Assembly (NCBI GenBank): GCA_004143945.1
Contig: SEHB01000006.1
Coordinates: 124,001-188,000, forward strand
Origin: Lysobacteraceae bacterium
GTDB lineage: Bacteria; Pseudomonadota; Gammaproteobacteria; Xanthomonadales; Rhodanobacteraceae
Length of the DNA: 64,000 nucleotides
Direction of reading: 5' to 3'
The notes below the pieces were generated by a model. That model had not been told where the DNA came from. It made no database searches and was given only the letters and a program-made list of their open reading frames with translations. This document shows, in pieces, positions 35,792 to 38,650 of this stretch; within the stretch, counting starts at the first letter, position 1; each line of letters begins with the position of its first letter. The position numbers were made by a program, and so were the translations under genes.

Positions 35792-35866
35792 GGGCGGTTA
35801 GCTCAGCGGTAGAGCACTACCTTGACATGGTAGGGGTCACAAGTTCGATCCTTGTACCGCCCACCA
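35792..35866 (+). tRNA. tRNA-Val (GAC)
   Basis: The 75-base gene has acceptor stem GGGCGGT/ACCGCCC, D-arm AGCGGTA, anticodon loop TTGACAT with anticodon GAC, T-loop TTCGATC, discriminator A and an encoded CCA. Confidence 0.97.
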
Positions 35867-35875
35867 ATTACTTTT

Positions 35876-35973
35876 GCCATCGTCCCTGATGGCGGGGTAT
35901 TGGAATGTTGGTCCGGCGTGCGATTGCGCGCCGTTGCCGAGCATTTAGACCGGCCATCCATGGCCGGACTTTT
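35876..35973 (+). repeat. Two-hairpin repeat beside tRNA-Val
   Basis: Hairpin GCCATC-gtccct-GATGGC (35876-35893) and hairpin CCGGCCA-tcca-TGGCCGG (35950-35967) followed by ACTTTT. The second could end tRNA-Val transcription. The loops GTCCCT and TCCA recur in a pair of hairpins at 43715-43757 just upstream of tRNA-Pro. Confidence 0.6.
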
Positions 35974-36043
35974 CAAATGAAGCAATGAAGCACAGTCACA
36001 GGCACGGAAAGAGGGAGCCGTAGTTCGAAAGAACACGATCACC

Positions 36044-36070
36044 ATGACGCGAACCTCGACGCTCCACTGA
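36044..36070 (+). CDS. Candidate threonine leader peptide MTRTSTLH
   Basis: An eight-codon reading frame, ATG-ACG-CGA-ACC-TCG-ACG-CTC-CAC then TGA, has three threonine codons. It lies 109 bases before thrS and 34 bases before an intrinsic terminator. Its ribosome site is weak (GAAAGAA about 12 bases upstream). It is called because position and composition match amino-acid attenuators; translation is unproved. Confidence 0.45.
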   Translation: MTRTSTLH

Positions 36071-36103
36071 GAACCTCGCGCTTCGTCCCGTGGCTGTAGA
36101 AGG

Positions 36104-36127
36104 AAAGGGCGCGACGCGCCCTTTTTT
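36104..36127 (+). terminator. Intrinsic terminator in the thrS leader
   Basis: The stem AAAGGGCGC/GCGCCCTTT with a three-base loop runs into six Ts (36122-36127). It lies 52 bases before the thrS ATG, inside the leader. Confidence 0.8.
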
Positions 36128-36178
36128 GTTGCCTGTGGTTTCCGCACGACGTGGCGGGACCGAACGCTGGAACCGACC

Positions 36179-38083
36179 ATGATCCAGATCACGCTACCCG
36201 ACGGCAGCCGCCGCGAATTCGACCAGCCGGTGACGGTCGCCGAAGTCGCCGCGTCGATCGGCGCGGGCCTCGCGAAGGCGACCGTCGCCGGCCAGGTCGA
36301 CGGCCGCCTCGTCGACGCGAGCGACCGCATCGACCACGACGCGACGCTGCGCATCATCACGCCGAAGGATCCCGAGGGCGTCGAGATCATCCGCCACTCG
36401 TCGGCGCACCTGGTCGGCCACGCGGTCAAGCAGCTGTACCCGACCGCGAAGATGGTGATCGGGCCCGTGATCGAGGACGGCTTCTACTACGACATCTGGT
36501 ACGAGCGCCCGTTCACGCCCGACGACCTTGCCGCGATCGAGCAGCGCATGCGCGAGCTCATCGACAAGGACTACGACGTCGTCAAGAAGGTGACGCCGCG
36601 CGACGAAGTGATCGCGGTGTTCAAACAGCGCGGCGAGGACTACAAGCTGCGCCTCGTCGAGGACATGCCCGACGAAAAGGCGATGGGCCTGTATTACCAC
36701 GAGGAATACGTCGACATGTGCCGCGGTCCGCACGTGCCGAACACGCGCTTCCTCAAGGCGTTCAAGCTCACGCGCATCTCCGGCGCCTACTGGCGCGGCG
36801 ATGCGAAGAACGAGCAGCTGCAGCGCATCTACGGCACCGCATGGGCCGACCGCAAGCAACTCGATGCGTGGATCCTGCGCATGGAGGAGGCCGAGAAGCG
36901 CGACCACCGCAAGCTCGGCAAGCAGCTCGACCTGTTCCACATGCAGGACGAGGCGCCCGGCCTCGTGTTCTGGCACGCGCGCGGCTGGTCGATCTGGCAG
37001 GTGGTCGAGCAGACCATGCGCCGCGTCTACGTCGAATCGGGCTACCAGGAGATCCGCTGCCCGCAGATTCTCGACAAGAGCCTGTGGGAACGGACCGGCC
37101 ACTGGCAGAACTACCGCGAGAACATGTTCACGACCTCGTCGGAGAACCGCGACTACGCGCTGAAGCCGATGAACTGCCCGGGCCACGTGCTCGTATACAA
37201 CCACGGCCTGCACAGTTACCGCGAATTGCCGATCCGCTACGGCGAGTTCGGCTCCTGCACGCGCAACGAGCCCTCCGGGGCGCTGCACGGCCTCATGCGC
37301 GTGCGCGGCTTCGTGCAGGACGACGGCCACATCTTCTGCACCGAGGCGCAGATCGAGGGCGAGGTGGTCGCGTTCCATCGCCAGGCGATGGCGGTCTACG
37401 CCCACTTCGGCTTCGAGGAGATCGACCTCAAGATCGCGCTGCGCCCGGAGTCGCGCATCGGCTCGGACGAAACCTGGGACAAGGCCGAGGAGGCGCTGCG
37501 CGCGGCGCTGCGCGCGTGCGGGGTCGAATGGCAGGAGCTGCCGGGCGAGGGCGCGTTCTACGGCCCGAAGATCGAGTACCACATGAAGGACTCGATCGGC
37601 CGTGCCTGGCAGGTCGGCACCATGCAGGTCGATTTCTCGATGCCCGGGCGCCTCGGGGCCGAATACGTCGGCGAGGATTCGGCCCGCCATACGCCGGTCA
37701 TGCTGCACCGCGCGATCGTCGGCTCGATGGAGCGCTTCATCGGCATCCTGATCGAACACCACGCGGGCGCGTTCCCGGCCTGGCTGGCCCCGGTGCAGGC
37801 CGTGGTCATGAACATCACGGGCGCCCAGACCGATTTCGCGGCCGAGGTCGCGCAAGCCCTTGTGGCCAAAGGTTTCCGGGTCGAGGCCGATTTGCGCAAC
37901 GAGAAAATCGGCTATAAAATCCGCGAACACACGTTGGACAAGGTCCCCTACCTGCTGGTCGTCGGCGACCGGGAACGGGAGGCGGGGGCCGTTGCCGTGC
38001 GTACGCGTGCGGGCGAGGACCTCGGATCGATGCCGATCGAAGCCTTCGCCGCGCGCCTGCAGTCCGAGAGCGCGCGGTCCTGA
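36179..38083 (+). CDS. thrS: Threonyl-tRNA synthetase
   Basis: ThrRS charges tRNA-Thr. The 634-residue protein has an N-terminal TGS domain (about 1-60), an editing domain with [15 protein letters not shown] and the C-P-H-like HVPNTR segment, and the class II catalytic core with zinc-binding Cys in [13 protein letters not shown]. The anticodon-binding domain ends in AARLQSE. The ATG is preceded by a weak ribosome site (GCTGGAACCGACC). It heads the conserved cluster thrS-infC-rpmI-rplT-pheST-ihfA; infC starts 42 bases after its stop. A candidate Thr-leader attenuator lies upstream. Confidence 0.98.
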
Positions 38084-38125: not shown

Positions 38126-38650
38126 ATCGCCACCGACAGCAAGCCGAACCGCAGGAACCACGAAATCCGTGTTCCGCGAGTGCGCGTGATTGGCGCGGAA
38201 GGAGAACAGGTAGGCATCCTGTCCCGCGACGAGGCGCTTGCCATGGCCCAGGAAGCGGGCCTGGATCTGGTCGAGATCCAGCCGAACGGCGACCCGCCGG
38301 TCTGCCGCATCATGGATTTCGGCAAGTTCAAGTTCGATGCGCAGAAGAAGGCGCATGCGGCCAAGAAGAAGCAGAAGCAGGTCGAGATCAAGGAACTGAA
38401 GTTCCGCCCGACCACCGACGTCGGCGACTACGCGATCAAGTTGCGCAACCTGCGCCGCTTCATCGAGGAAGGCGACAAGGTCAAGATCACGATCCGATTC
38501 CGCGGGCGCGAGATGGCGCACCAGGAACTGGGTCGCGCGATGGTCGACAAGATCGTCGCGGACATCGCCGAGGAAGCGGTGATCGAGCAATACCCGCGCA
38601 TGGAAGGGCGACTGATGGTGATGATGGTCGCACCGAAGAAGAAGATCTGA
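38126..38650 (+). CDS. infC: Translation initiation factor IF-3 with an AUC start codon
   Basis: IF3 binds the 30S subunit and rejects non-standard start codons. The 174-residue product has the N domain ([16 protein letters not shown]) and linker [18 protein letters not shown]. The C domain has [17 protein letters not shown] and [18 protein letters not shown]. The first standard start in frame is GTG 38180, which would remove 18 conserved residues, and a stop codon lies in frame at 38120. ATC 38126 sits eight bases after GGAGG (38113-38117) and fits. Rare start codons on infC are known in E. coli (AUU) and give autoregulation by IF3. Confidence 0.95.

Follow-up and report, generated by a model that had tools for sequence, protein, structure and literature searches.

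What controls thrS, the gene for threonine--tRNA ligase, when it is preceded by a minute reading frame rich in threonine codons and, between this frame and the gene, by a terminator? Amino-acid attenuators such as trp, his, thr, leu and pheST consist of a short frame with codons for the matching amino acid, an intrinsic terminator and an alternative antiterminator. In Firmicutes, thrS is controlled at transcription by a T-box, which senses the charging of tRNA-Thr. For the locus studied here we consider it very probable (roughly 0.86) that a ribosome-mediated transcription attenuator makes thrS expression depend on charged tRNA-Thr. The reading is well supported by comparison with relatives. 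What the sequences show is the frame, its threonine enrichment and conservation, the terminator and, in relatives, a predicted fold that depends on the position of the ribosome; that the leader is translated, that ribosomes stall on it, and that transcripts end there in the cell and respond to threonine is what we infer.

The mechanism would work as follows. With ample Thr-tRNA, the ribosome would reach the leader stop and cover the first bases of the spacer (region 2), the terminator would fold, and RNA polymerase would stop before thrS. Under a shortage of Thr-tRNA the ribosome would wait on the threonine codons and leave the spacer free to pair with the terminator core, giving readthrough into thrS and probably infC onward. 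Initiation at the leader AUG would use a Shine-Dalgarno-like motif on the other side of a hairpin, and a rare CGA codon before threonine would slow the ribosome there.

The thrS leader in the window

The features of the locus in the window (the whole stretch of 64,000 nucleotides that was analysed) are collected in Table 1. The preliminary description of this DNA had read a threonine leader-peptide attenuator here, and the relatives' frames, their threonine enrichment and the ribosome-position folds support it, the last two lying far above their controls. Its eight-codon frame with threonine at codons 2, 4 and 6 is present as ATG ACG CGA ACC TCG ACG CTC CAC TGA, and the stop lies 108 nt before thrS. 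The terminator, GGGCGCGACGCGCCC-UUUUUU, is there too as the predicted 3' fold of the leader; its stem spans 36101-36127 once the A/U extension is counted by our own predictor. A simple terminator scan of the window did not list it; pairing of the U tract within the stem is the probable reason. The proposed antiterminator, 36077-36089 with 36107-36118, exists with its mismatches (-12.6 kcal/mol as a duplex) and is part of the fold predicted for the partial RNA with a ribosome on the threonine codons. The ribosome site of the leader had been called poor, and the AUG has no strong Shine-Dalgarno sequence immediately 5' of it; a GGAG lies beyond the hairpin, and looping the hairpin out would bring it to 7 nt from the AUG. 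The 135-nt leader folds a little better than shuffled sequences (z -2.14), and 6 of 200 shuffles fold equally well. A promoter search of the window found none, and the true start of infC may be further upstream than 38180.

Table 1. Features of the thrS locus, in positions of the window
Feature	Position	Strand	Basis or remark
tRNA-Val (GAC)	35792..35866	+	upstream neighbour of the leader
candidate terminator of the tRNA-Val unit: GC-rich hairpin, T-rich tail	35947..35970	+	own terminator predictor only
GGAG, Shine-Dalgarno-like, 5' side of the hairpin	36014..36017	+	sequence, type B alignment A3, anti-SD scan
conserved hairpin CGU-A-GUUC-GAAA-GAAC-ACG, adjoining the leader start	36019..36037	+	A3 alignment; predicted fold of window RNA
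linker AUCACC from hairpin to AUG, invariant	36038..36043	+	A3 alignment
leader peptide frame MTRTSTLH + stop; Thr codons 2, 4, 6; Arg = CGA	36044..36070	+	
region 2	36071..36100	+	assumed ribosome footprint; folds
antiterminator 5' strand	36078..36089	+	predicted pairing with 36107-36119, partly transcribed RNA
antiterminator 3' strand	36107..36119	+	overlaps terminator arms and loop
intrinsic terminator, 12-pair stem + U tract	36101..36127	+	own predictor, folds
thrS, threonine--tRNA ligase	36179..38083	+	TIGR00418, 698.7 bits
infC (IF-3), downstream of thrS	38180..38650	+	TIGR00168 from profile position 16

Threonine frames and codon choice in relatives

We fetched 104 thrS upstream regions from the window's order, in 12 family groups and out of a larger number of matches; the genome searches in the order gave no thrS match in 2 of 41 and 7 of 150 genomes. 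For a class outgroup, where thrS was matched in 172 of 185 genomes (three of the window's order), 60 regions of other families were taken. A set gathered by name comprised 80 loci kept from at least 587 candidates; by their record titles 39 are Betaproteobacteria and 3 belong to the window's order. These regions were searched blindly, ignoring amino acids, for an ATG frame of 5-16 codons whose stop lies 5-75 nt before a predicted intrinsic terminator. The outcome named beforehand as speaking against the attenuator was a terminator shared by relatives without the frame or its threonine codons. The opposite is seen, as a frame precedes the terminator in 83 of 104 order regions (12 of 60 in the outgroup and 29 of 80 in the named set).

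Threonine makes up 29% of the blind-frame residues in the order (207/708), 5% in the outgroup (8/154) and 22% in the named set, the last figure deriving mainly from Betaproteobacteria. The next commonest residue in the order frames is arginine, with 13%. As controls from the same order regions, threonine reaches 4% in other plus-strand frames and 5% in minus-strand frames, and reading the leaders in the wrong frame yields 9% and 4%. We claim enrichment from this blind count alone, since the 82 order leaders of the fold tests below were picked for their threonine content.

A frame with at least one threonine was found in 82 of 104 order regions and in 11 of 12 family groups, counts that are not independent because the leaders share descent. 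The groups give f1 35/38, f2 21/23, f3 3/3, f4 3/3, f5 2/2, f6 0/1, f7 1/1, f8 10/12, f9 1/4, f10 1/12, f11 1/1 and f12 4/4, and the system is thus mostly absent from f10, f9 and f6. The scarcity in f10 (e.g. locus L013) suggests either loss of the leader there or a later gain elsewhere. The expectation that relatives would keep the threonine codons holds for 79 of 104 regions, with two or more of them, and not for some leaders of the window's own type (type B, see below), which keep a single one (L019 MTRIFDILD, L021 MTRVLPLI). The 82 leaders are of exactly eight codons in 53 cases, and their stops stand a median of 26 nt (range 9-43) from the terminator.

An intrinsic terminator was predicted in 86 of 104 order regions. 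Four loci (L002, L009, L040, L043) have a threonine leader behind the other common 5' element (type A) and no terminator by our own predictor; their control may be translational, or may go through a hairpin without a U tract. By eye, L023, L024 and L026 seem to have an extra hairpin between terminator and gene, just 5' of thrS.

The choice of codons in the leaders is unusual as well. An arginine directly before threonine is encoded by CGA in 32 of its 39 occurrences in the order and in 17 of 19 in the named set, and CGA accounts for about 1% (order) and 3% (named) of the arginine codons in thrS, as counted in partial genes of up to 1,500 bases and often just 100. ACT makes up 35% of the threonine codons of order leaders versus 3% in thrS. 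The tRNA-Arg anticodons of the window's genome are ACG, CCG, TCT and CCT, with TCG absent among 43 tRNA matches; inosine wobble reads CGA, so in this genome the codon must be read in that way. We infer that the rare CGA slows the ribosome at the threonine codon that follows. In the Salmonella his leader, according to the part of the paper available to us, CGA gives strong de-attenuation (PMC4046918).

Another explanation of the CGA, that CGCGAAC is kept for pairing with region 2, was tried and is unsupported: exact 6-mer complements occur in 3 of 33 order leaders with 1.5 expected, and in 3 of 17 named leaders with 1.9 expected. To compare CGA usage we also sought histidine leaders at hisG loci. 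From 41 matches 30 loci were examined, and the two frames containing histidine (L314, L326) have 36-37 codons and are not leader-like.

The Betaproteobacteria have a parallel thrS leader with the core MTPRT(T) (MTPRTTT...). A looser search, with an ATG, GTG or TTG start, at least three threonines or an R-T motif and no terminator required, matched 25 of 39 betaproteobacterial loci and 5 of 38 others in the named set; typical leaders are MTPRTTTWLWGNR (Massilia), MTPRTTTTPTKV (Roseateles) and MFKRTTTTRISR (Vogesella). The exact core occurs in 6 of 299 genomes of the phylum, in 4 of the 6 with a TGS-like motif at most 900 nt downstream. Several of the betaproteobacterial loci, among them L175, L179, L181, L187, L191, L195 and L211, have a conserved stretch before the ATG, often GAGAAAGGC....GGTT.

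Ribosome position and the predicted fold

To model the switch, the ribosome was placed at the first threonine codon or at the stop, with the first free base 12 nt after the start of the A-site codon. A ribosome at the first threonine codon leaves the terminator with a probability of 0.51 over the 82 order leaders, and a ribosome at the stop with 0.87. The shift exceeds 0.3 in 35 of 82 leaders and is reversed in none, counts which are inflated by sequence kinship. The mean change is 0.366, versus 0.093 when the spacer is shuffled; the shuffles have a shift above 0.3 in 14 of 82 leaders on average and 22 of 82 at most, and 0 of 50 shuffled sets reach the observed mean. For 18 named leaders that do not belong to the order, the change has a mean of 0.197 versus -0.002 shuffled, with 4 of 18 above 0.3.

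Sequestration of the 5' arm of the terminator before the 3' arm is made gave a weak signal, 0.68 observed and 0.60 shuffled, and it was folding the whole segment, as above, that proved informative. In the order this test was significant in 8 of 82 leaders with a stalled ribosome, and the difference between stall and stop in 0 of 82. For the window alone, 5'-arm sequestration against spacer shuffles gave p 0.13 and the stall-versus-stop comparison p 0.18, and its antiterminator taken alone is indistinguishable from chance. It is weaker than the long-stem antiterminators of L021, L014, L006 and L028.

The window has nevertheless a stage at which the predicted fold depends on the ribosome. A stall on codon 2 or codon 4 gives the antiterminator as the predicted fold at RNA 3' ends 36120 and 36122 (-19.3 and -18.9). 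A ribosome that has gone on to the stop gives a weaker antiterminator at 3' ends 36118-36120 (-13.1, to be compared at 36120 with -19.3 for the stall); at 36122, where the stalled fold is still the antiterminator at -19.3, it gives the terminator (-15.3). After completion of the U tract the terminator is favoured in both ribosome states (0.98 and 0.99 at equilibrium). As the finished terminator wins whether the ribosome is stalled or at the stop, we read the window as a leader that could switch only kinetically. An antiterminator that is exclusive and dependent on the ribosome is found for the order as a set, and for the window at one stage of the partial transcript only.

The preliminary description also had a pause stem overlapping the threonine codons. 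The two arms, 36048-36052 (CGCGA) and 36076-36080 (UCGCG), are exact complements of five pairs at -6.0 kcal/mol, and so far it stands. A conserved pause stem does not: for 80 leaders the mean energy of the duplex of leader and region 2 is -9.01, and for their shuffles -9.03, no excess across the order. In our judgement a pause hairpin is helpful rather than defining, and we keep the locus in the attenuator class without one.

Start modules, other explanations and known thrS control

By their 5' element the 82 order leaders divide into 49 of type A, 11 of type B, to which the window belongs, and 22 others. Type A has the consensus RRGGUGGCC-hairpin-GGYCGAGNGUGYGACAUG, with exceptions (51 distinct sequences). 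In its hairpin 94.3% of the cells are paired, 5 of 8 pairs have changed on both sides and there are 23 double-change cells; slid controls reach 10-50% pairing. The type B alignment, A3, holds 17 motif-gathered sequences (16 distinct) with 28 invariant positions, including the linker and codons 2-3, though this invariance comes partly from selection, as the gathering motif includes the AUCACC bases. All cells of the type B hairpin are paired, with three double-change cells, and 5 of its 7 pairs never vary. Covariation in the aligned sequences thus argues strongly for the type A hairpin and only slightly for that of type B. In 51 of 51 scanned type A leaders the sequence most like a Shine-Dalgarno site is found beyond the hairpin, at -36 to -39; of 11 type B leaders, 7 have it at -33 and 4 at -10. 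The four leaders of f12 have the same motif, GAGGUGG, near the AUG and no hairpin. A resemblance to the 16S rRNA 3' end was considered and set aside, since the hairpins vary in their loops.

The ribosome-binding site of the leader would therefore seem to be split by a hairpin, by analogy with E. coli thrS, whose split site is interrupted by a hairpin that ThrRS binds, according to the part of PMC3858243 available to us. This likeness is what speaks for a ThrRS-bound operator, with the hairpin as the ThrRS site and the peptide secondary, because at this locus as well, in front of the same gene, a conserved hairpin stands between a Shine-Dalgarno-like motif and an AUG. We hold it to be very unlikely. 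The hairpin precedes the AUG of the leader, followed by a peptide and a terminator, and not that of thrS, whose translation the E. coli operator controls through ThrRS; its loop is variable and has no conserved threonine anticodon, so it does not match the tRNA-Thr-like stem-loop, set in the thrS ribosome-binding site, that marks an operator of the E. coli type. Mimicry of tRNA-Thr by the 5' element is also unsupported by alignment scores of three elements against 18 tRNAs of the genome, as the three tRNA-Thr score no better than others; the closest case is the type B element of the window, for which tRNA-Thr UGU is third, one point below Glu and Asp. Moreover, the untranslated RNA of several type A leaders, folded from the AUG, is already antiterminator-like, so a block of leader translation would raise expression, which is the wrong direction for feedback.

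Another explanation is that the terminator merely ends the tRNA-Val transcript or insulates thrS, the short frame being accidental. A tRNA-Val(GAC) does lie upstream in the window and in 15 of 16 scanned A3 loci (absent at L004, with L090 unscanned and with a further one at L031, which is near type B), and terminators before thrS are predicted in 28 of 60 outgroup regions, only 12 of these with a blind frame, which in 3 has two or more threonines. Against an accidental frame stands a threonine enrichment limited to frame 0. The tRNA is found at only 2 of 14 scanned type A loci, the other 12 carrying the leader with a fetched flank that shows no tRNA-Val, and a separate hairpin with a T tail already follows the tRNA in the window (35947-35970), one which the simple terminator scan of the window did not list. 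We regard this explanation as highly improbable. The least probable is that the short frame only aids thrS translation or coupling, by ribosome reinitiation, with no sensing of threonine: such a role of short leader genes has been put forward for bacteria (in the available part of PMC4833913), but here a terminator and the 108 nt from leader stop to thrS intervene, and the threonine enrichment and the ribosome-dependent fold would be left unexplained.

Returning to the attenuator, one could imagine it as a two-part sensor that departs from the textbook attenuator, made of a split-site hairpin gate, a CGA-Thr stall primer and exchangeable start modules with the codon sensor kept. The CGA, read by inosine wobble only, would prime a stall at the threonine codons even under mild shortage, lineages would swap the start module (hairpin-split, ordinary Shine-Dalgarno or leaderless), and ThrRS might bind the gate, or else IF3, the product of the downstream gene infC. 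This elaboration is speculative and we think it rather unlikely.

The frame, terminator and antiterminator stand in the same layout as in the amino-acid attenuators of E. coli, before a gene of the matching pathway or synthetase; pheST is also named in the part of PMC1262725 that was available. The present leaders differ in having thrS as their target, in being mostly of eight codons, in the hairpin between ribosome-binding motif and AUG, and in having neither a supported pause stem nor an Rfam match above cut-off. With Rfam, only tRNA scored above cut-off in the window and nothing did so on the leader in nine loci, where we take the few matches below cut-off to be chance. A T-box binds tRNA directly, and its covariance model matched neither the window, at gathering scores, nor any of the nine loci, with matches listed down to E = 1. 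In the literature covered, with subscription papers mostly outside its scope, there is one other proposal of a thrS leader peptide, MKRVRPFLETTPGFVPAR of Streptomyces lividans (PMC8079986). As given in the accessible part of that paper, it is likewise a frame with threonine 5' of thrS, but it has 18 residues with two threonines, an unclear terminator and one strain behind it, and by eye no evident likeness to the eight-codon leaders. The main text of an attenuator survey (PMC2965389), in the part available, does not contain the name thrS.

What would be new is thrS as a target of attenuation in these groups, with a very short leader and unusual start modules. If true, the attenuator would be a third mode of thrS control beside the E. 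coli operator and the Firmicutes T-box, reaching across an order and with parallel leaders in Betaproteobacteria. Leaders that are so short and numerous are also a natural set for asking how the CGA-Thr context and the architecture of the start site tune a ribosome-driven switch.

The elements appear to be specific to thrS. The type A model gave 21 strong matches in 81 genomes, all 5' of thrS and on the same strand; the model had itself been made with most of these loci, and the telling part is that no strong match lies elsewhere. Seven further matches were weak (E 7e-4 to 0.01). The type B motif, at three mismatches or fewer, occurs a single time in its own genome. Its 18-base core, at one mismatch or none, was found in 32 of 233 genomes of the family, and 12 of 15 of those loci with a 16-base core have a thrS-like start downstream, the exceptions being L250 (a short contig piece), L272 and L273.

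Twelve leaders of groups f5, f8, f9 and f11 have, by eye, a TACAAT-like box about 6-8 nt 5' of the start codon (L025, L029, L034, L036, L039, L082, L084, L088, L091, L093, L096 and L098), and from this position their peptides may be leaderless, that is, without a 5' UTR. One of them, at L084, starts with GTG (MIAFVRTSTG).

In the ThrS protein of the window the N-terminal 140 residues (36179-36598) are 93% identical to those of L002, from another genus and with a type A leader. Within its own genus 14 genomes gave a match, and the identity is 56-64% for 13 of them and 89% for the remaining one (L003). With the protein so similar to that of a type A genome and the leader of type B, the leader and the thrS coding sequence seem, from their sequences, to have had separate histories, perhaps by recombination.
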